Positions 658 through 30,267 of a stretch of DNA of 41,829 nucleotides are shown in pieces. Source of the stretch: Thiotrichaceae bacterium (GTDB lineage: Bacteria; Pseudomonadota; Gammaproteobacteria; Thiotrichales; Thiotrichaceae); NCBI GenBank assembly GCA_026988095.1, contig JALSLX010000118.1, positions 1 to 41,829 of the forward strand. The letters are read 5' to 3'. Numbering within the stretch: the first letter of the stretch is position 1; every line of letters starts with the position of its first letter. The notes under the pieces were generated by a model. That model did no database searches. It was not told the origin of the DNA and saw nothing but the letters and a program-made list of their open reading frames with translations. The position numbers were made by a program, and so were the translations under genes.

Positions 658-2331
658 TTAACTCACTTTCAAACGAGGGACAGCCTCTAATAGTTTTTGT
701 GTGTACTCCTGTTGTGGATTCCCGCAAACATCCGCTGTTAATCCCTGCTCTACAATTTTTCCTGCTTTCATCACGACAGTCTCATCGCTTAAATACTCAA
801 CCACGCCGATATTGTGTGTGATGAAAAGCAAGGTTAGATCACGTTGTTGTCGTATCTCTAATAACAGCTGTAGAATTTCTGCTTGCACTGAAACATCAAG
901 CGCACTGGTGATTTCATCACAAACAATAAACTCAGGGTCAACCACCAAGGCGCGCGCTAAACCAATTCTCTGCCTTTGACCACCTGAAAATTCATGTGGA
1001 TAACGCCATAAATGATCTCGGTCAAGTTGCATAATCTCTAGCACTTTTGCGGCACGTTCAATACGATCTTCTTTATTTTCACCAATACCATGAACACTCA
1101 TTGGCTCGGTCAATGTAGTTACAATTTGTAGGCGAGGATTCAAAGAGGATTGCGGGTCTTGAAAAGCAATTTGTATGCGCGGGCGAATCGGGCGTAGCTG
1201 TTTTGGTGTTAAACCAACCAGCTCTTGTCCTGCTAATTTAATACTGCCTTCTGTGGCAGCCTCTAATTGCACAATGGCACGACCTAATGTGGTTTTCCCA
1301 CAGCCTGATTCACCCACCAATGCCATGATTTTGCCTTTATGGATACGCAAGTCAACATCATCCACTGCGCGTACATGATCGGTTATTCTGCGAAACAGAC
1401 CCGTTTTAATCGGGAACCACACTTTTAAGTTATCCACCGTAATCAATGCATCGTGGTCCGTTTCTAACTTTTCAGCACGTTTAAAATGGCTGGGGCGTTC
1501 AAGGTTTTCTGGCACTGCCGCCAATAGCTTTTTTGTATAGGGGTGTTTGGGGTTTCTCAACAATGTTTTCACATCGCCCTGCTCCACGATCTTGCCCTTT
1601 TGCATAACGCCAACTTGATGCGCCATTTGAGCAACCACACCCAAATCGTGAGTAATAAATAAGATACTCATGCCTGTGGTTTTTTGCAGATCTTTCATCA
1701 ATGAGAGTATTTCTGCCTGAACGGTTACATCCAGCGCAGTTGTTGGCTCATCAGCAATTAATAAATCTGGCTTACAAGCAAGCGCCATCGCAATCATCAC
1801 GCGCTGGCGTTGCCCGCCTGATAACTGATGCGGAAAATCATCAAAACGACCTTCTGCATTCTTGATCTGTACCTGCTTCATCGCTTTAATAGTTTGATCT
1901 TTTGCGTCTTGGTCAGATAGCCCTGTATTATGTAATTGAAGTGCTTCTACAATCTGCTCGCCAATACTAAACACTGGATTTAAAGAAGTCATTGGCTCTT
2001 GGAAGATCATTGCGATGCGTGAACCACGAATTTTTCTTAGCTCATCGTCTTCAAGTTTTAATGTATCAACTTGTGCATGGCTTTCATCAGCTTTACGCCA
2101 ATCAAAAAGTATTTCGCCCGCTGGATTGGAGCTAATGCCTGCAGGTAACAATTGAATAATTGAAAGCGCACAGACAGATTTTCCACTGCCAGACTCACCA
2201 ACCAAACAATAGGTTTCACCTTTTTTAATATCAAAACTAACATCATTAACGGCTTTGATAATTTCTTTTTTGCCAACCTGCAAATGTGTTTGCAGGTTTT
2301 TTATACTAAGCAATGGAGAGGTTAAGTTCAT
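658..2331 (-). CDS. Peptide-type ABC transporter, fused double ATPase (YejF/DppDF-like)
   Basis: This 557-residue cytoplasmic protein contains two complete nucleotide-binding domains in tandem, equivalent to a fusion of OppD and OppF. Domain 1 (about 8-265) has Walker A GESGSGKS, signature LSGGQRQR and Walker B LLIADEP. Domain 2 (about 300-550) has Walker A GESGCGKT, signature FSGGQRQR and a Walker B variant FIVCDEI, with Ile where Pro is usual after the glutamate. [11 protein letters not shown] after domain 1 is the C-terminal motif of the oligopeptide ATPase group. The fused form resembles YejF of the YejABEF system. Its stop-start spacing to the upstream permease gene is 6 bp. Substrate is inferred from family only. 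Confidence 0.9.
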
Positions 2332-2337
2332 CTACAA

Positions 2338-3513
2338 CTAATCCTCACGCTTAGTAACAGTTGGGTCAATCGCATCGCGCAACGCCTCACCCATGAGGTT
2401 GTAGGCAAACACGGTGAGAAAAATCGCACCACCTGGGAATGCTGCCATCCACCAATTAAATACCGATGATTTAACGGCCTGATTAAGCATCTGCCCCCAT
2501 GAAGGCTCATCAACCAAACCCAATCCTAAAAAACTCAAGGTCGCAACCGCAAGGATTGCCGATGCTACGCCAAAACTGGCAGCAACCAATAACGGCGCAA
2601 TTCCATTGGGTAACATATGTTTAAAAAGAATTGAACGTAAAGGCAAACCACTGGCAATTGCCGCTTGAACATAATCTTGCTTACGCAGTTTTAAAAACTC
2701 AGCACGAATATATCGCGCATAGCCTGACCACCCCGTCACGCCAATGATAATCATCATGATATATATGCTACGGCCAAAGAAGGCAACAAAGGTCAGTAAC
2801 AAAAAGAGCACAGGAATGGCTTCAAATATCTCAACCAAACGCATCCCCAACATATCAACCTTGCCTGAAAAGTAGCCCATTTGTCCGCCGATAATAATAC
2901 CGAGAAACATGGCAATGCCGGTTGCTATAAAACCAATCGACATGGCGATACGTGAAGCGTGAATCATTCGGCTTGCTACATCAGCGCCGTTTTCATCCGT
3001 GCCCATAATATGGTTGCGCTTGATGTCTGACAGCGGTGCTTCTAAACCTGTATCGCCATAATCACGTAGATAATCTTTTGCAGAATATGGAATGGGCGGT
3101 AGCACCATCCAATCGTATTCACTGGCTGTCTCACGGTATTGCTCATAAACAATGAGTTTAGGGGGCGAAACAAAGGCCTTCCCGGCAAAACCCGCTAGCA
3201 TAACCAGTGTTGCAAAAATCCATAACTTGGTTGAAAAAGTTAGGCGTAATTTCCAGAGCACAAGTAAAACCAGAAATGCACTCATCACCAAGACATCTTC
3301 TGCGCTAATATATCGAAGAATTGGGAAGATAATGTCCCCATTTTTACTCGCAATCAACGGCATACTATTTGCCAATATCGGGGCAAACGCGGCTACAAAT
3401 GATAGGATGATCACCCATGCCAAACCTAGCCTTGCACCCCAGCCCGAAAAGGCCGAACGCAAAATGCGCCTACCGTAAGATTGATTAATCCGTGTCTGGC
3501 TCATATCAGTCAT
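2338..3513 (-). CDS. Peptide-type ABC transporter permease (YejE/OppC-like)
   Basis: Inner-membrane permease of the DppC/OppC family. The C-terminal half has the standard BPD_transp_1 domain with the cytoplasmic-loop motif (AAIASGLPLRSILFKHMLPN) and the OppC-type ending EALRDAIDPT. The N-terminal part is longer than usual: between the first helix and the core there are two extra hydrophobic segments (about residues 75-120) and a periplasmic-looking stretch. I chose ATG 3513 because GAGGG lies about 6 bases upstream. It overlaps the preceding permease gene by 8 bases, which implies translational coupling. A second ATG at 3504 is possible. Confidence 0.88.
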   Translation of the reverse strand: MTDMSQTRINQSYGRRILRSAFSGWGARLGLAWVIILSFVAAFAPILANSMPLIASKNGDIIFPILRYISAEDVLVMSAFLVLLVLWKLRLTFSTKLWIFATLVMLAGFAGKAFVSPPKLIVYEQYRETASEYDWMVLPPIPYSAKDYLRDYGDTGLEAPLSDIKRNHIMGTDENGADVASRMIHASRIAMSIGFIATGIAMFLGIIIGGQMGYFSGKVDMLGMRLVEIFEAIPVLFLLLTFVAFFGRSIYIMMIIIGVTGWSGYARYIRAEFLKLRKQDYVQAAIASGLPLRSILFKHMLPNGIAPLLVAASFGVASAILAVATLSFLGLGLVDEPSWGQMLNQAVKSSVFNWWMAAFPGGAIFLTVFAYNLMGEALRDAIDPTVTKRED

Positions 3514-4882
3514 ATTGAACCCTCGGGTCAACCAATGTATAGAGAAAATCTGAAATCAGATAACCAATCAGTGATAGTATTCCGCCAATCATAGTGATCG
3601 ATAAAATCAACTCTCTGTCACGTGATTGCACTGCCTCAATCACTAATTTCCCCATGCCTTCGATGCTAAAGATGGACTCGATAATAACCGAGCCAGCTAA
3701 TAGCCCCGGCAAGATACCTGAAAAAATTGTGATCAACGGCAGTAAACTATTACGGAAAACGTGTTTCCATAATACATCGTTTTCAGCCACACCTTTTGCA
3801 CGTGCAGTGCGTGCATAATCTGCATTTAAGTTTTCTAAGATCGAGGTTCGGGTGATTTTTGCCAAGCCTGCAAAACTGCCGTAAGACAGCGCAACAATTG
3901 GTAAGATCAAATGCCAAATTTTATCAAATAAGAAACCACGTACAAACTCACCTGATTGAAACTGCATAGCGATTAATAAACCGATACCTATGCCTGCCAT
4001 GCTTAAGCCCCCAACACGAAAGAAACTAAACTTCGTCCAAGCAAACAAACCTAAAGTGACCGCGCCTAACAATGGCAACATTATCCAATTTAATAATAGC
4101 GTTTCAGGGTGTGAATTCGCCATCCATGCACCCAGTGCAGCGCCAATTAACGCTGATACAATCACGCGTAATTTCACATTGCACCATTGACCAAAGATAA
4201 CCGCGCCAACCGCGCCCAACATCATAAACACAAAGACTTTGGCAACATCAAACAGCGATGACCAATGCGGTAAAAAGGGCATATTATAGGCTTCTCGACT
4301 GGATAAACCCGAGGTCGGAAACCAGTGCCAATGCTGTACGCTGGCAAAAAAACCAATCATCAAAACACCAGCCAACATACTAGGTATTGACCAAAGTGCC
4401 AGCATAATAATATTGGTGGAAACATCAAAACGCCCCCCTCGATCAGTCGCCGCATTCATGCCAATAATGATGGCGAGAATATAAATAAGCGGAATGGTAA
4501 TAACATTGAGTAATAAAGTAATCGGCAAACGCTCGCCAATTAGATCGCTTACCGAGCGTCCATAATTAAAGCTTTCGCCTAAGTCCGAGCCTTTTAGCAA
4601 TGAAAAGCCATCGATATTACGCTCTTTATCAAAAGTAAAACCGATGGGGGAAATATTATTGAGCCACCGTAGATATTGCACAGGCATCGGGTCATCAAGC
4701 CCGTAGCGTTTATTGTAATAATCAATCATCGCCTTTTTTTCGGCGGGTTTCATATTACCTTCTACTAAGCCTTCGGCGCTGATGCCACCTGGTGCGCTTG
4801 CCATTACAGCAAATACGACCATGGTGATTCCCAACAATGTGGGAATCATGAGGAGAATACGGCGTATTAAATACGTCAACAT
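3506..4882 (-). CDS. Peptide-type ABC transporter permease (YejB/OppB-like) with a membrane insertion
   Basis: Inner-membrane permease of 458 residues, about 100 longer than OppB or YejB. The start MLTYLIRRILLMIPTLLGIT is the classic OppB N-terminus. The core loop motif is in the C-terminal third (YARTARAKGVAENDVLWKHV). The extra length is a hydrophobic block of roughly residues 205-310, with three or four additional membrane segments between the usual helices. Its start is 3 bp after the scpB stop, so it is probably co-transcribed with scpB. No substrate-binding protein gene accompanies the cluster; the closest candidate in the window is at 20961-22838. Confidence 0.88.
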   Translation of the reverse strand: MLTYLIRRILLMIPTLLGITMVVFAVMASAPGGISAEGLVEGNMKPAEKKAMIDYYNKRYGLDDPMPVQYLRWLNNISPIGFTFDKERNIDGFSLLKGSDLGESFNYGRSVSDLIGERLPITLLLNVITIPLIYILAIIIGMNAATDRGGRFDVSTNIIMLALWSIPSMLAGVLMIGFFASVQHWHWFPTSGLSSREAYNMPFLPHWSSLFDVAKVFVFMMLGAVGAVIFGQWCNVKLRVIVSALIGAALGAWMANSHPETLLLNWIMLPLLGAVTLGLFAWTKFSFFRVGGLSMAGIGIGLLIAMQFQSGEFVRGFLFDKIWHLILPIVALSYGSFAGLAKITRTSILENLNADYARTARAKGVAENDVLWKHVFRNSLLPLITIFSGILPGLLAGSVIIESIFSIEGMGKLVIEAVQSRDRELILSITMIGGILSLIGYLISDFLYTLVDPRVQYD

Positions 4883-4885
4883 ACG

Positions 4886-5584
4886 TTAATTTTGTCCTTC
4901 TTGTTTTTCTTGTTGATGTTGCTTTTCTGAATAATTTTGATCAGATAAATCAAGTTCATTTTCAATGGATAATGTTTCTTTTTCTGCAGACAGGTCTTCT
5001 TTAAATTCTTCTATTCCTTCTTCTCTCATTTTCAATTCAAGCTCTGGGTATAATTTATCAATATCTTGAATTTCGCTCAAACTTGGCATTTCATCCAATG
5101 ATTTAAGGTTAAAGTAATCTAAAAACTGACGAGTTGTACCAAGCAATGCTGGGCGACCTGGAACTTCTTTATGCCCTACAATACGAATCCAATCACGCTC
5201 TTGTAAGGTTTTGATGATGTTTGAGCTAACTGCCACACCGCGTACATCCTCTATTTCTGCACGAGTGATCGGTTGACGATAAATGATGAGCGCTAATGTT
5301 TCTAAAAGCGCGCGTGAATATTTTGCTGGCTTTTCATCCCAATGCTGGGTGACCCATTTTTTGTATTCTTTCTTGGTTTGAAAACGAAAGCCGCTGGATG
5401 TTTCAACTAACTCAAACCCATGATTATCAAATGACTCCTGAAGCTGGCTCAAGGAAGATTTAACGTCGTTTCGGTTAACAAGGTCTTCTGGCTCGAAAAA
5501 GCCTAGTAGCTTTTCTACCGACAATGGTTTTTCCGCGCTTATGAGAATAGCTTCGAGTATTTTTTTTAATTTATCGGTTTGCAT
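4886..5584 (-). CDS. scpB: Segregation and condensation protein B
   Basis: ScpB is the winged-helix kleisin-interacting subunit of the SMC-ScpAB condensin complex, which compacts and segregates the nucleoid. The protein is 232 residues, with the characteristic segments ILEAILISAEKPLS near the start, ALLETLALIIYRQPITRAEIE (about 90-110), RDWI and GHKEVPGRPALLGTT. The last 50 or so residues are an acidic, Glu/Gln-rich tail of low complexity. scpA lies upstream on the same strand, separated by an unusually large 257-bp gap that holds a palindromic repeat. In many gammaproteobacteria rluB follows scpB; here an ABC permease does. Confidence 0.93.
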   Translation of the reverse strand: MQTDKLKKILEAILISAEKPLSVEKLLGFFEPEDLVNRNDVKSSLSQLQESFDNHGFELVETSSGFRFQTKKEYKKWVTQHWDEKPAKYSRALLETLALIIYRQPITRAEIEDVRGVAVSSNIIKTLQERDWIRIVGHKEVPGRPALLGTTRQFLDYFNLKSLDEMPSLSEIQDIDKLYPELELKMREEGIEEFKEDLSAEKETLSIENELDLSDQNYSEKQHQQEKQEGQN

Positions 5585-5641
5585 TCCGTATTTTAGTATC
5601 CAATTGCAGTTTTTAAGTCCTTAAAAACACTTTTTATTTGA

Positions 5642-5784
5642 CCACCCCCCCTGTTTTTTGCTTTTTTGTACGCCCTAGGCGTTAAAAAGTATATCGTTAC
5701 ACCTTCCGAAGGAAGTGTCGATGCTGGTTGAAGCATCGAAAATACTATTTTTACGTACAAAACAGCGAAAAACAGGGGGGGTGG
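5642..5784. repeat. Palindromic element copy 1 (143 bp), between scpA and scpB
   Basis: The two 31-base ends (5642-5672 and 5754-5784) are inverted repeats with two mismatches. The arm starts CCACCCCCCCTGTTTTTTGC and ends TTGTACG. The 81-base centre contains further small dyads: TCGATGCT/AGCATCGA at 5718-5725 and 5732-5739 around a six-base loop, ACACCTTCC/GGAAGTGT at 5699-5718 with one bulged base, and CGCC/GGCG at 5671-5681. The element lies inside the scp transcription unit, 57 bp after the scpA stop and 57 bp before the scpB start. Related copies are at 14562, 19321, 25005 and 30486. No clear target-site duplication is visible. I do not recognise the family. Confidence 0.9.
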
Positions 5785-5841
5785 ATACATTTATTTATCT
5801 AAAAAACCTCTCCCAGCAGAGAACCGTAAAAATCATGTATA

Positions 5842-6678
5842 TTATTCTTCCACACTTGCCACCGGCTTTAGGTAAATCGGTGCAAAGGCCTCTGCTTGCA
5901 CCATATCAATCACTTTTAATTTTAGCAACTCAAGCACCGCCATTAAAGTCACCACAACGCCTAAGCGTCCTTCTTTTAAGGTGAATAAGCTTTGAAACTC
6001 TACAAACTCATCGCCATTTAGCTTTGATAATACATGAGTCATTCGTTCACGGATGGAAATTTCTTCGCGTTCAATCTCATGATGCTTTTGCATATCGACA
6101 CGGTTGAGAATATCTTGAAATGCCAATAATAACTCTTTCATATCAACTTCGGGTTCGGGCTTTTCTTTATCATCTCGAATGACCTCAACATCCACATCAA
6201 AATTATCACGTCCTTTGCGTGGAAGCTCATCAATATCAGTCGCCGCTTGTTTGAATCGCTCGTACTCTTGTAAACGCCTTACTAATTCAGCACGCGGGTC
6301 GTCTTCATCTTCTACCTCTTCATGGCGCGGTAATAACATACGTGATTTGATTTCTGCCAGCATGGCTGCCATCACTAGGTATTCTGCGGCCAAATCAAGA
6401 TTAACCGTGCGCATCAACTCGACATATTCCATATATTGTCGTGTGATTTCATAAATGGGTATATCGAGAATATCTAAATTTTGACGACGTATTAAGTAAA
6501 GCAATAAATCTAACGGGCCTTCAAAGGTTTCAAGAAAAACCTCCAAAGCATCGGGCGGAATATAAAGATCTTCAGGCGGGGAAGAAATCTCCTCTCCCTG
6601 CACAATGGCGAATGGAAGCTCACCTTGGCTGTGTGCCGAGTAGTGTAATTCGCCTTGCTTGTCTTTATCTGATTTCAT
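5842..6678 (-). CDS. scpA: Segregation and condensation protein A (kleisin)
   Basis: ScpA bridges the SMC heads and binds ScpB in the bacterial condensin complex. The 278-residue protein has the diagnostic kleisin start FEGPLDLLLYLIRRQ (about 53-67), then LDILDIPIYEITRQYMEYV, then EYLVMAAMLAEIKSRMLLP. The C-terminal winged-helix part (VTLMAVLELLKLKVI) contacts the SMC head. About 45 residues precede the kleisin motif, a modest N-terminal extension. The gene begins 10 bp after trpS ends, so trpS and scpA are probably co-transcribed. Downstream lies palindromic element copy 1. Confidence 0.94.
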   Translation of the reverse strand: MKSDKDKQGELHYSAHSQGELPFAIVQGEEISSPPEDLYIPPDALEVFLETFEGPLDLLLYLIRRQNLDILDIPIYEITRQYMEYVELMRTVNLDLAAEYLVMAAMLAEIKSRMLLPRHEEVEDEDDPRAELVRRLQEYERFKQAATDIDELPRKGRDNFDVDVEVIRDDKEKPEPEVDMKELLLAFQDILNRVDMQKHHEIEREEISIRERMTHVLSKLNGDEFVEFQSLFTLKEGRLGVVVTLMAVLELLKLKVIDMVQAEAFAPIYLKPVASVEE

Positions 6679-12872: not shown

Positions 12873-14531
12873 CTATCTGACGAGTAAGTCATACTCCTTT
12901 TTATATTCCGTTGTTTCAACATTAAAAACACTCAAGAGCGTATGGGACAAATTATCATGAGAGGTTTTTTCTTCTTCAATATTTTTCATTGCAGACATAT
13001 CAATTTTTTGATTTTTTATATATTTTTCAGAAAACCATGACAACATTGGCACATGGGTTTGCGCTTTTGGTGCTAAAAAATAAGGTAGTCCGTGCAAATA
13101 AACGCCATTTTCACCCAGTGACTCACCATGATCTGATGCATATATTAAAAAAGTATCATTCTCACTCTGCTGTTCTTTTAGATATTTAATCAACTGACTT
13201 ACAACATGGTCTGTATACAAAATTGTATTATCGTAAGTATTTACAATCTCTTGATCAGTACACTCCTGAGGAGAGGATTTCTTGCACGAGGGTTCAAATA
13301 CTGAGAATTCATCTGGATAACGCTTATAGTATTTTGGCCCATGACTACCCAGTACATGCAAGACGACCAATACATCTTGTTGACTATTCATCTTACTAAG
13401 CACTTCATCCATTTTTCCAACTAACACTTCGTCGAACTCTTCACCGTCAGAATAAAAGGGTGACTCTGGATCTGGATTTTTACGTATATTAATTTCTCCT
13501 GTTCGCTCACAAACGCCTTTACAACTGGAGTTATTATCAATCCAAATGACCTCGACCCCAGCCTTCTCTAAAATATCGAGACTATTGCTTTGCAACGATG
13601 CTTTAACAGGCGAATAGTCATCACGATTAAGCAATGAAAACATACAAGGCACTGAGTACGCTGTTGATGTCCCACAAGAGGAAGTATTCTTATAATAAAT
13701 AACAGATTCTTTTTTAAGCTTTGGATTTGTTTCTCTGCTATAACCATTTAAAGAGTAGTTTTCTGCTCTTGAGGTTTCCCCTACAATCATAATGCCTATC
13801 GATCGTTGAGCACTGGGTTTATTTTGTTTCGCATCTTGTCCAATTAACTTCAAAGATGCTTTATGTTTTCTCTGCTCACTTTTAACATAGCCTTTAATGG
13901 AATCAAAAGCATACAAAGGAGTAAGGTAGACTCTTAAATCTCTATTTTCCCGTGAAAAATACGTGGTGTATTTAAAGTTCATCATAATTAACGCAACAAC
14001 GACAGCACCAAAACCAATGATATAAGCTATGCGTGTAACTAGCTCTTTAAATATTTTCTTGTAAGAAACATTGACCCAAAGCACAAAAAGAGAAGGTAAC
14101 ACCCCATAAAAAACAATATGTTTAACCAAGGGGTAAGATAAAAGCTCAGTTGCTTCCTGCTTATTGTTATCCTTAATCGTCTCAACAGTATTTCTCACCA
14201 TATCAATATCAAAGATCACACCTATTTCTTGGGTGAAATAGCTGAGTGTTGCTGAAAATAACAATAAAGTGATAGCCAATGGTTTTAAAATAAATTTCTG
14301 ACCAACAACATATAGTAGTAACGCAATCACCATAATTGCAACAACGTATATTGTTAAGGCGTAGCCCCCTCCTTGAAAAGAAGTAAGGTCAAGGCGCTCG
14401 GATAGCCTTGAAAAGAAAACTTGGTTATTTAGTAGAACAATGAAAATTGAAACTAACAAAATAAACTTACTTGATGAAATTTTAAACCTAAACAAGAGTA
14501 TTACCCGAATAAAAAAGCCTGAATTGTACAC
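12873..14531 (-). CDS. Lipid A phosphoethanolamine transferase (EptA-like)
   Basis: Inner-membrane enzyme of the EptA/MCR family that transfers phosphoethanolamine from phosphatidylethanolamine to lipid A or related glycans, lowering surface negative charge. Five hydrophobic segments occupy about the first 190 residues, followed by a periplasmic sulfatase-type domain. The metal and nucleophile region is [16 protein letters not shown], then [13 protein letters not shown] with the probable nucleophilic Thr. [16 protein letters not shown] supplies later metal ligands. Cysteines paired in this domain type are present. The start is uncertain: a GTG at 14531 after a run of T, with AGGGGA rather far upstream. 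Which acceptor is used cannot be told from sequence. Confidence 0.88.
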
Positions 14532-14561
14532 AAAAAAAAAATAATTTCCCCTTTAATAAGG

Positions 14562-14592
14562 CCACCCCCCCTCTTTTTCGCTGTTTTGTACG
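14562..14592. repeat. Palindromic element copy 2, single arm (31 bp)
   Basis: One arm of the element family is present, starting CCACCCCCCCTCTTTTTCGC and ending TGTTTTGTACG. It is nearly identical to the right arm of copy 1 read in reverse complement. No matching inverse arm follows before the der start, so this copy is solo or decayed. It lies in the divergent gap between the phosphoethanolamine transferase start (14531) and der (14679), where it could be part of the promoter region of either gene. Confidence 0.82.
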
Positions 14593-14678
14593 TTTTAGAA
14601 AAGTTTCTATGTGTTGATTTAGCTACAATTTGTTATCCTTACGCGCTATACATTCCCCACTTTTTTGCAGAGCAAAAC

Positions 14679-16124
14679 ATGAAACCCGTATTCGCCCTTG
14701 TTGGCCGTCCTAATGTCGGCAAATCTACCCTATTTAATCGTCTAACTAAATCACGAGACGCATTGGTTGCCGACTTTCCTGGGCTTACACGTGACCGTAA
14801 ATACGGCCAAGGTGTGTTAGGCGCTGATAGCCAAGAAGGTAACGAAGGACGAAGTTATCTCGTTATCGATACAGGTGGATTAAGTGGAGATGATGTCGGT
14901 ATCGATGAATACATGGCAACGCAAACATGGTTAGCTGTTGATGAAGCCAGTACCGTGCTTTTCATGGTGGATGGCCGAGAAGGTTTAACAGCAGCTGATC
15001 ATTTGGTAGCAGATAGATTAAGGCGTGCTGGTAAAAAAGTATTCTTAGTCGTAAACAAAATTGACTCTGTTGATCCTGACCAAGCGATGGCTGATTTTTA
15101 CCAGCTAGGCTTCAAAGAAGTTTACGCAATCGCCGCCTCTCAAGGGCGTGGCGTAACGCAGATGATAAAAAGTCTACTTGAAACTTTCCCTATCATCGAA
15201 GAAGAAAAAATTCCTGAAGAACATGCAGACAGTATTCGCATCGCCTTTGTCGGCAGACCCAATGTAGGAAAATCCACGCTCATCAATCGCATTATGGGTG
15301 AAGAACGTGTTGTAGCATTTGACAAACCCGGTACTACCCGCGACAGTATTTACGTACCTTTTGAACGAGATGGTCAAAAATATACGTTGATTGATACCGC
15401 AGGTGTGCGCCGCAAAGCCAAGGTTAAAGAGGCCATTGAAACCTTTAGCATTATCAAAACACTCTCTGCGATCGAAAATTCACACGTTGTGATTATGTTG
15501 CTTGATGCCCACGAAACTATTACCGACCAAGATGCCCACCTACTTGGGCTAGTGCTGGACGCAGGTCGCTCATTAGTTATCGCCATCAATAAATGGGATA
15601 ATCTTAGTGAATATCAACGTGATCAAATCAAAGTAAAACTTGAGGTTAAATTACCCTTTTTGGACTTTGCCGATAAACATTTTATTTCTGCATTACACGG
15701 CACAGGCGTTGGGCATTTATATAAATCGGTTCATGAAGCTTATGATTCTGCGATGCTGAAAGTTTCAACCGCGCGCATGACCAGAATGTTACAAACCGCA
15801 ACTGAAGCGCATCAACTTCCTATCGTGGCAGCAAGTCGTATCAAACTTCGTTATGCACACCAAGGTGGTAGTAACCCGTTTACGGTTATCATTCATGGTA
15901 ATCAGACCAAACGCATACCTGGTAGTTACAAACGCTATTTAATGAATTACTTTCGTGAAACGCTTAAATTAAAAGGCACTCAAGTTAGGCTTGAATTTAA
16001 AACAGGTGATAACCCGTTTGAAGGCAAAGAAAAACGCGCCAGACTGTCACCCTCTGAAATATTCCGCCAAAATAAAAAGAACCCTCACAGAAAATCTCTA
16101 AAGAAAAGCAAGAAGCGCAAATAA
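14679..16124 (+). CDS. der: Ribosome biogenesis GTPase Der (EngA)
   Basis: Essential double-GTPase needed for 50S subunit maturation. Two G domains are visible: the first with [13 protein letters not shown] (about residues 8-20) and DTGG, the second with [13 protein letters not shown] and [15 protein letters not shown] and NKWD are the two G4 motifs. A KH-like C-terminal domain carries [10 protein letters not shown], and a Lys/Arg-rich tail ends the protein. Length 481 agrees with E. coli Der (490). ATG 14679 is preferred because family proteins begin MKPVFALVG-like; the frame is open 93 bases further upstream, but that stretch has no family similarity. Confidence 0.96.
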
Positions 16125-16204
16125 TAAAATAAGTAGAACACAGGAAAATAGAACTTATAGCCGTATAATAGGACTAATAATAAGCATTTTGAGGGGGATG
16201 TTTT

Positions 16205-17809
16205 TTGAAACACTATAATTTTATTACGACTGCTCTACTGACAATACTATCCATATCACTTTCAACATCGAGCTATGCTAAACCACCCATTGGTATGAAC
16301 ACCAATGAGATTCAACATGTTGATTCTAGTGTGCCATTCATCAATGTCTTTAAAATGGCAATGCCCTTTAAGGATGCAAAAAAACTCACCAACGGCAATG
16401 TGGTTTTTGATAAAGACGGTTGGCCAAGAGATTTAAAAGGCGGTCAAGCGGGTAGCTATATGCTCCATTGGCTTCCTGCAGGTACTCTTCCAGAAGGAAA
16501 TTACACTGTACTTTATGATGGTGAAGGGCAAATTGCTTATGAAAGCAAAAGTGGTGATGTAAGAATTGTTCACTCAGCACCTGGCAAAGATATTATAAAT
16601 ATCCGCTCAGGTAGCGATAAATTTATCCAAGTCGCGCTTATTATTAAACGCTCTAATCCACGAAAATACCTACGCAATATTCGTGTGCTACTTCCCGGTG
16701 GCATCTGCGCCAACAATCCTTTCAAACGAGTAAACGCCGCTAATCAATGTAATGGCAACTACCTATCTTTTGAGAAGCACCACGAACGCCTCGTGTTCAA
16801 TCCTGATTACCTCAACTTCATGAAAGACTTTAAAGTCATTCGTATGATGAATCTTTCAGGTATCACCCGTAACCCAATCCGTCGCTGGGAGCAAATGCCT
16901 CACATGAGTAAAGCAACATGGGCAGGATACGAAGGTGTACGTGGAGCACCGCTAGAAGTTATGGTTAAACTTGCCAATATCCTAAACCGTGATGCATGGT
17001 TTAACATACCTCATGCCGCTGATGATAATCTCATACGCCAATACGCCAATTATATTGCTCGTCACTTACGCCCAAACCTAAAAGCCTATATCGAATACAC
17101 CAACGAGACATGGAATACGGTCTTTATGCAAACCCATTACACCAAACAGATGGGGCATAAACTAGGGCTAGATAAAGACCCTAACCAAGCAGGCTATAAA
17201 TACTATTCACAACGTGCCGTTGAAATATTCAAAATATTTGAACAAGCCTTTAGAGGCAGACAGCATTTGGTTCGCGTAATGGGTGTATGGTCAGCCAACC
17301 GTTATATGACCCCTGTTGTAATGGAGCATAAAAATGCCTATAAACACGTTGATGCTATGGCGATTGCACCCTACTTTTTCGTACATGCCAAAGCGTTATC
17401 TGGAGTAAACAGCGTACCCAGTGTTTTCGCTTTAATGAAAGATGATAAGAAAAACCCCTACTCTATGAACAACGTCTACAAAATGATTGAACAACAGATG
17501 AAGTTTGCTAAAAAGTACAATGTAAACCTAATTGCCTATGAAGGCGGACAACATCTCACTGACCCAAAAGCACGTTCAACAAAAAGTAACCCCAACCAAT
17601 TTTTAATTGGCGCAAATCGTGTTCATACCATGGAAAAGTTCTATATTGAATTTTTACAAAACTGGGATCGTATTACGAACGGCTCATTATTTGTAGCTTT
17701 CTCAGCACCCAGAACTTGTCAATTTTATGGTTGCTGGGGGGTTAAAGAATACTTAAATCAACCTAATGCTAAAGCACCTAAATATCGTGCCTTGCAAAAA
17801 TTCTTTTAG
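16205..17809 (+). CDS. Secreted glycoside-hydrolase-like protein of an uncharacterised family
   Basis: Exported protein of 534 residues with a signal peptide (about 1-25, cleavage near SYA-KP). A beta-rich N-terminal region (about 45-155) precedes a probable TIM-barrel part. Two glutamate motifs look like catalytic acid/base and nucleophile positions of clan-A glycosidases: AYIEYTNETWN (about 294-304) and LIAYEGGQHL (about 440-449). I recall similar YVEYSNEVWN and AYEGGQH motifs in proteins loosely annotated as cellulose-binding or hypothetical; no activity is known to me. The start is TTG 16205, supported by GAGGGGG at 16191-16197, seven bases upstream. The neighbours, der and yffB, give no functional clue. 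Confidence 0.7.
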   Translation: MKHYNFITTALLTILSISLSTSSYAKPPIGMNTNEIQHVDSSVPFINVFKMAMPFKDAKKLTNGNVVFDKDGWPRDLKGGQAGSYMLHWLPAGTLPEGNYTVLYDGEGQIAYESKSGDVRIVHSAPGKDIINIRSGSDKFIQVALIIKRSNPRKYLRNIRVLLPGGICANNPFKRVNAANQCNGNYLSFEKHHERLVFNPDYLNFMKDFKVIRMMNLSGITRNPIRRWEQMPHMSKATWAGYEGVRGAPLEVMVKLANILNRDAWFNIPHAADDNLIRQYANYIARHLRPNLKAYIEYTNETWNTVFMQTHYTKQMGHKLGLDKDPNQAGYKYYSQRAVEIFKIFEQAFRGRQHLVRVMGVWSANRYMTPVVMEHKNAYKHVDAMAIAPYFFVHAKALSGVNSVPSVFALMKDDKKNPYSMNNVYKMIEQQMKFAKKYNVNLIAYEGGQHLTDPKARSTKSNPNQFLIGANRVHTMEKFYIEFLQNWDRITNGSLFVAFSAPRTCQFYGCWGVKEYLNQPNAKAPKYRALQKFF

Positions 17810-17818
17810 GAATGACTA

Positions 17819-18160
17819 ATGATCATAATGTACGGCATAAAAAACTGTGACACCATCAAAAAGGCACGTAAATTTTTAGAATCTAACAATATCGAATACG
17901 AATTCCACGATTTTAGAGACGATGGCTTAAACCCCATTCAACTTCGCGCATGGTTAAAAGAATTAGGCTGGGAGAAAGTCATCAACAAACGTAGTACCAC
18001 ATGGCGCAACTTGCCTGATGAAACTAAAGAGAATATGGATGAAACTTTAGCAATGGTTGTAGCAGAACAGCAGCCAACGATAATCAAACGTCCTGTACTT
18101 GAACTGGCAGATAAAGTTATGATTGGCTTTTCTGAAAAAACCTATCAATCACTTTTGTAG
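17819..18160 (+). CDS. yffB: ArsC/Spx-family protein YffB
   Basis: Small thioredoxin-fold protein of 113 residues in the ArsC-like family. It matches E. coli YffB along its length: [51 protein letters not shown] and IGFSEKTYQ. It has a single N-terminal cysteine (NCDT) and lacks evidence for arsenate reductase activity; a glutathione-related role has been suggested for the family. The yffB-dapE pairing seen here is conserved in E. coli and supports the assignment. Start ATG 17819 is 9 bp after the preceding gene. Confidence 0.93.
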
Positions 18161-29739: not shown

Positions 29740-30267
29740 CTACATGGCTTCTTCTTCTATCCCCAAGGAAACATCCTCCCCCCATTCGATAGGGTATAGC
29801 CCTCGATCAGACAACCGATGAAATGTTGAGTATGGCCACTGAACAACCAAGTCGGCTACCCCATGCTTCACAGGATTAAAGTGAATATAATCCATATGCG
29901 TTTTGTACGATAAATCATCAAAAATTTCATTACGCTCTATTGATTGTTGCCAAATGATTTGATTAGGTTTTTTTACACTAACGCTTGAAGCTGTTTTTGA
30001 TAGATATAATAACTTTGTAAATCGTTTTTCAATTGAATGCCATCTTAATAAAAAATAGCTACGCACTATTGGCAATGTCCACATACAATGAATATGGTCT
30101 GGTAACACCACCATAGCATCAATATAAAAAGGACGTTCTCTCATCACGCTACGCAAAGCGGTTTGAAATAGTTTTATATTATTCACCAAAAAATCGTCAC
30201 CATCTGCTAACCTAACAGTGAAGAAATAAGTGATACCCTCGACGCGATTACTCTGATAAGTAGACAT
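29740..30267 (-). CDS. REP-associated tyrosine transposase (RAYT, Y1/HUH type)
   Basis: A 175-residue IS200/IS605-related transposase, full length for the REP-associated class. The HUH metal motif is LPDHIHCMW with His58 and His60. The catalytic tyrosine is Tyr127 in MDYIHFNPVKHG. The segment WQQSIERNEIFDD corresponds to the WQ...E..I.D pattern before the tyrosine helix. RAYTs are domesticated single-copy genes that act on REP hairpins dispersed in the genome. No matching REP flanks it directly, but palindromic element copy 5 begins 218 bp upstream and a GTAG-type hairpin lies at 28784. It may be active, as no key residue is missing. Confidence 0.92.
   Translation of the reverse strand: MSTYQSNRVEGITYFFTVRLADGDDFLVNNIKLFQTALRSVMRERPFYIDAMVVLPDHIHCMWTLPIVRSYFLLRWHSIEKRFTKLLYLSKTASSVSVKKPNQIIWQQSIERNEIFDDLSYKTHMDYIHFNPVKHGVADLVVQWPYSTFHRLSDRGLYPIEWGEDVSLGIEEEAM

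Follow-up and report, generated by a model that had tools for sequence, protein, structure and literature searches.

A gene in a Thiotrichaceae genome very probably encodes a sugar-chain-cutting enzyme of a kind absent from the reference libraries that we searched, as judged from its predicted structure and its conservation. The protein, at positions 16,205–17,809 of the window (the whole 41,829-nucleotide stretch of DNA analysed), is by predicted fold a GH-A-type glycosidase that Pfam, NCBIfam and PDB do not list. Its insert is unusual and its expansion within one lineage striking; it introduces no new principle. The interpretation given in a preliminary description of this DNA is largely supported, except in its account of how the gene came to its present position.

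A predicted GH-A-type barrel

Inspection of the window sequence reveals an intact 534-codon open reading frame, which is a real gene (Table 1). The TTG start and GAGGGGG site named in the preliminary description are both present, and its claim of secretion agrees with an N terminus, MKHYNFITTALLTILSISLSTSSYA followed by KPP, that resembles a signal peptide by eye and from which we infer that the protein is probably exported.

Table 1 Features of the gene and its predicted product
Feature	Position	Strand	Basis
Ribosome-binding site GAGGGGG	16191..16197	+	Sequence; 7 nt upstream of the TTG start
Putatively secreted (β/α)8-barrel, predicted glycoside hydrolase, 534 aa	16205..17809	+	Open reading frame, model, structure matches, conservation
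Probable signal peptide, residues 1–25 (SYA/KP)	16205..16279	+	By eye; low-confidence start of model
Predicted barrel strand 1, residues 29–32	16289..16300	+	DSSP of model; alignment to GH51 starts at model residue 22
Predicted β-sandwich between barrel strands 1 and 2, residues 44–192 modelled alone	16334..16780	+	pLDDT 91.7 by itself
E297, near-invariant	17093..17095	+	60/61
N300–E301, predicted acid/base motif of clan GH-A	17102..17107	+	61/61 each; directly after strand 294–298
E446, predicted nucleophile	17540..17542	+	60/61; in strand 441–449

The AlphaFold2 model, built from a 26-row alignment (pLDDT 90, pTM 0.89), forms a (β/α)8 barrel by strand order in DSSP, with strands 2–8, as numbered by inference from DSSP, at residues 211–213, 263–268, 294–298, 355–360, 384–387, 441–449 and 496–498. 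A fold other than a TIM barrel had been set beforehand as the outcome that would count against a glycosidase; the model is a TIM barrel, and all 50 PDB entries listed after structural re-alignment are clan GH-A-type glycosidases with Z scores of at least 19.5. The best of these is the GH51 structure 1pz3_A (Z 24.5, rmsd 3.1, 298 residues aligned, 11% identity), and the other 49 are GH51, GH79, GH39 and GH5 proteins, where the family of entries without one in their title is presumed. Foldseek gives a similar picture: 49 of the 50 matches listed are glycosidases with barrels that we assign to clan GH-A types, among them GH51, GH26, GH53, GH5, GH10, GH1, GH2 and GH79, and the match at rank 6 is a transporter–sybody entry. 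The model therefore predicts the (β/α)8 barrel that membership of clan GH-A calls for.

The GH51 α-L-arabinofuranosidases (1pz3_A, 2y2w_A) share this barrel and, we assume, its active-site arrangement, with Asn–Glu at the fourth strand and Glu at the seventh, but they differ from the window protein in architecture as well as in sequence. The C-terminal β-sandwich of GH51 is absent from the window protein, which ends with the barrel (its last residue, 534, aligns to residue 380 of a 497-residue GH51 chain) and carries in its place a β-sandwich after strand 1. GH79, GH39 and GH5 enzymes of clan GH-A likewise have the barrel fold in common with the model (Z 19.5–22.4) but are only 7–13% identical to the protein. 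When modelled in isolation, the inserted stretch folds as a β-sandwich. Foldseek returned nothing for it at E 0.001 or less, and its best Z on structural re-alignment, 7.4, falls within the tool's stated noise range. Because the weak matches mix several carbohydrate-binding modules with other β-sandwiches, we call the insert only CBM-like in shape; the modules among them suggest that it may take part in glycan binding. That a family is missing from this match list proves nothing.

The predicted catalytic pair is conserved. Both motifs singled out in the preliminary description as holding paired catalytic-looking glutamates about 145 residues apart, YIEYTNETWN and AYEGGQHL, are present, and their glutamates E301 (17,105–17,107) and E446 (17,540–17,542) lie exactly 145 residues apart, at predicted strands 4 and 7. 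We examined an alignment of 61 divergent sequences, window protein included, drawn from Pseudomonadota and from the phylum to which a flavobacterium belongs, as well as from an actinomycete and a cyanobacterium. Residues N300, E301, R213, W228, N258, W265 and Y445 are invariant in all 61, E446, E297 and Y390 are kept in 60, and W511 is kept in 58. Retention of N300, E301 and E446 across so divergent a set makes the glutamate pair more than chance. Arg, Asn–Glu, Tyr, Glu and Trp are typical conserved residues of clan GH-A. In the model, E301 follows strand 4 with Asn just before it, where the clan has its acid/base, and E446 lies on strand 7, where the clan has its nucleophile. E301 is a better acid/base candidate than E297, because E297 is replaced by Gln in one row, a cyanobacterial copy. 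The sole exception at E446 is a distant relative (L063, genome G329) with Ala at this position, which may be non-catalytic or may reflect a misalignment.

Sequence searches of Pfam, NCBIfam and the PDB place the protein in no family, and within these libraries the preliminary statement that it has no assigned glycosidase family stands. Neither Pfam nor NCBIfam gave a significant match, and the hits to WT1 in Pfam (E 0.037) and to EngA in NCBIfam (E 0.088) are chance matches far below the cut-offs. Against PDB sequences, phmmer found nothing up to E 10 and a 26-row profile found nothing better than E 0.053, a weak scaffoldin match that was set aside. Pfam searches gave no match to the GH51 catalytic domain model up to E 10, none to PF00150 (GH5) or PF01229 (GH39), and no CBM9 domain in the protein itself. 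Comparison by hhalign, which is weak evidence because the GH5 and GH51 profiles are shallow (7 and 5 rows), gave no signal for GH51 (probability 0.6%), and scores for GH5 and GH51 were no better than for the unrelated barrel DHDPS, so a sequence-level link to either family was rejected. No phage record among 50,697 matched by tblastn at E 0.01; four viral models match the predicted structure below E 0.001 in Foldseek at 8–11% identity, and we claim no specific viral relative. Literature searches did not find four motif strings of the protein, returned nothing on the family among the matches listed for host, sheath, CBM9, hydrolase and exopolysaccharide topics, and found nothing that connects Roseobacter pTB3 with it.

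The protein may nevertheless belong to an existing CAZy family for which Pfam and NCBIfam hold no model, a tentative reading that is compatible with our preferred explanation. To our knowledge some recent GH families have no Pfam model, and a barrel joined to CBM9, as seen in paralogues described below, is a common CAZyme layout. Against such membership stand the 26-row profile search of PDB sequences and the annotations of plasmid-borne relatives, which are hypothetical, calcium-binding, cadherin-like or ABC substrate-binding protein, with family 16 glycosylhydrolase given for one fusion.

Gene order and family spread

The gene lies between der (open reading frame 14,586–16,124) and yffB (17,819–18,160), and the same order, with der immediately before the gene and yffB immediately after it, occurs at 11 distinct loci in 10 assemblies, repeats counted once (the window, L010, L011, L019, L020, L021, L022, L023, L040, L043 and L045), including loci of Cocleimonas and Leucothrix. 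At eight more loci (L009, L013–L018 and L024) der is directly upstream and no yffB was seen, some of these sequences ending soon after, and at L007 and L008 der is about 6–7 kb from the family gene. In a quick tree, with long branches elsewhere, the window gene belongs to a 27-row clade that has an SH-aLRT of 100; three loci within this clade (L025, L029 and L049) have no der nearby, and L054 fell outside the der check. Conserved order at 11 loci together with this clade indicates that the gene was inherited at this spot rather than newly inserted. The preliminary description had read the position as insertion into a housekeeping region; as a recent event, the arrival of a foreign gene is contradicted by the shared order and was ruled out. 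Its remark that the gene sits alone between der and yffB is right about the flanks, but four paralogues lie elsewhere in the host genome.

Several further features of these loci were recorded. Two loci with the order der, family gene, yffB and dapE (L011 and L019; CALFUP010000082 and CALFUP010000186) occur in one metagenome-assembled genome although they differ about as much as two genera do, and the bin is probably mixed. By eye, the window also encodes on its minus strand a protein like REP-associated tyrosine transposases (29,740–30,267) and one like EptA-type phosphoethanolamine transferases (12,873–14,531).

The family is expanded in the host's own lineage. The host genome (2.26 Mb, 92% complete) carries at least five copies, on contigs C118, C139 (two in tandem), C158 and C56. 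In a survey of 57 genomes, host included, that counted matches rather than genes (one gene can be split), all 36 genomes of the host's taxonomic family matched, with 5–19 matches each, compared with 1 of 21 outside it. Distribution is patchy beyond that family: matches occur in 8 of 299 genomes of Pseudomonadota at large, host included, and, in the phylum to which the flavobacterial locus L031 belongs, in 10 of the 247 genomes searched, the one with L031 included. Named hosts of relatives include Cocleimonas flava, Leucothrix arctica, Leucothrix pacifica and Thiothrix eikelboomii, and 25 plasmid records match, for example from Roseobacter, Paracoccus, Sulfitobacter, Rhizobium and Gloeothece, with plasmid relatives 24–29% identical to the window protein. 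As in CBM9-bearing CAZymes, three of the five host copies end in CBM9_1, which has no other match in the host genome, whereas the window protein is without it. Two CBM9-bearing copies stand in tandem at C139 (11,333–15,761), and a tandem pair is also present in Leucothrix pacifica (L026).

Neighbourhoods and domain partners of relatives

Polysaccharide-synthesis genes are enriched near some distant relatives. Among 80 open reading frames around seven such relatives, pooled with no per-locus split, we counted seven GT2, four Bac_transf, four GT group 1 and three Polysacc_synt_3 genes; these four families are absent from the 25 families with at least two members among 102 control frames, taken as one window from each of the same seven genomes, in which singleton families may be unseen. 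Three of the seven loci (L066, L068 and L070) were also checked singly. Across the 15 distant-relative loci examined, of which L077 and L078 (two Rhizobiaceae records) lack annotation, annotated plasmid loci with polysaccharide-synthesis genes occur in Roseobacter denitrificans, Gloeothece and Paracoccus marcusii. The marginal case is Sulfitobacter; at L079 a mannose-1-phosphate guanylyltransferase is the only polysaccharide-related gene. No polysaccharide-synthesis genes were found by eye or annotation at L072, L075 and L080; the annotated hosts without them are Pseudoalteromonas and Paracoccus liaowanqingii. By eye, neither the window gene nor any other host copy stands inside a synthesis cluster, and the C158 copy is 1–4 kb from three dTDP-sugar-type genes; the host genome has two Bac_transf genes.

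Relatives also join the barrel to other domains, including RTX repeats, cadherin-like domains and, at L031, CBM9 with further domains. In Paracoccus marcusii (NZ_CP157015.1) a single 2,302-residue protein (L073, 7,465–14,373) combines RTX repeats, a GH16 domain and the barrel, and its gene lies on a mobilizable plasmid with glycosyltransferases. An N-terminal GHSLxG or GNSLVHH motif, SGNH-esterase-like by eye, is fused to the barrel in this protein and three others (L068 8,277–11,144, L070 7,672–10,230 and L071 8,164–11,202), and the N-terminal stretch of all four has no Pfam match. About 1.6 kb upstream of the L070 relative, Pfam identifies a fusion of formyltransferase, AMP-binding, luciferase-like and carrier-protein domains (1,435–6,066) next to glycosyltransferases and a phosphopantetheinyl transferase; such a fusion is unusual company for exopolysaccharide genes, and an L069 frame (13,361–17,911) is similar in look.

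These neighbourhoods bear on whether the polysaccharide is the cell's own. If the protein were a GH-A hydrolase for feeding on polysaccharide from outside, such as an algal or plant glycan, this would suit the fold, the CBM9 domains and the many copies per genome, and one paralogue comes after an ABC transporter of sugar- or glycerol-phosphate type (L052, by eye). We consider feeding on foreign glycan unlikely: no SusCD-type or polysaccharide-utilisation cluster surrounds the host copies by eye, several relatives stand in synthesis rather than utilisation loci, and searches of the host genome with GH5, GH39 and GH51 models gave no match (E 0.001 or less for PF00150 and PF01229).

A proposed role in trimming self-made polysaccharide

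We favour, at somewhat better than even confidence, a retaining GH-A-type glycosidase that trims a self-made extracellular polysaccharide such as sheath, holdfast or slime. After export, which the probable signal peptide would direct, the inserted sandwich and, in paralogues, the C-terminal CBM9 would hold the glycan polymer, and E301 as acid/base with E446 as nucleophile would cut it by double displacement. Such cutting may set chain length or loosen the coat, much as PelA acts on Pel and PslG on Psl. We infer the catalysis, the substrate and its self-made origin, the last by extension from relatives, because by eye the host copies stand outside synthesis clusters. The preliminary suggestion of an uncharacterised hydrolase of extracellular polysaccharide thus agrees with the predicted GH-A-type barrel, and its link to polysaccharide comes indirectly, through relatives.

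Comparable hydrolases are described in exopolysaccharide systems. PelA (PMC9894940) and PslG (PMC9075953) shape polymer form and biofilm, and the gene for a predicted exported GH16 hydrolase, part of an exopolysaccharide pathway in Sphingomonas, affects colony form (PMC11340318). The proposed job resembles that of PslG and PelA of Pseudomonas aeruginosa, which trim self-made exopolysaccharide, but their genes lie in exopolysaccharide operons, whereas the window gene, with der and yffB as neighbours, lies outside such an operon; some distant relatives do lie in such a setting. Our searches revealed no sequence relation to PslG or PelA, and all three comparisons, including that with the Sphingomonas enzyme, are analogies without homology. 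PslG is itself a clan GH-A enzyme.

Less likely than feeding on foreign glycan is a protein that binds or transfers glycan, either a transglycosylase or an inactive barrel, and so serves to build or anchor sheath or holdfast instead of cutting it: the extra β-sandwich, the RTX and cadherin-like domains of relatives and the one Ala at the nucleophile are in keeping with it, but the catalytic pair is otherwise kept more strictly than expected of a mere binder, although transglycosylation is only partly excluded because a transglycosylase would still need both glutamates.

Thiothrix nivea forms rosettes and has a multilayer sheath whose structure is given there as unknown (PMC3368414), and further background covers the genus Thiothrix (PMC8570282). 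A broader proposal, plausible although we hold it at less than even confidence, is that the trimming glycosidase represents an undescribed clan GH-A family with a carbohydrate-binding sandwich after strand 1, expanded to many copies as a main extracellular glycan-remodelling enzyme of the group of Thiothrix, Leucothrix and Cocleimonas and shaping the polysaccharide of sheath, holdfast and rosette. If our reading is true, a whole group of sulfur bacteria that grow as filaments and form rosettes, along with their relatives, carries 5–19 matches per genome to a kind of enzyme unnamed in Pfam, NCBIfam and PDB. The family would then give a function to proteins of marine Alphaproteobacteria and of a cyanobacterium that now bear the labels hypothetical, calcium-binding or cadherin-like, and would supply polysaccharide-cutting enzymes whose predicted active site is defined. 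It would also provide a direct handle on the making and trimming of sheath and holdfast in the Thiothrix, Leucothrix and Cocleimonas group.
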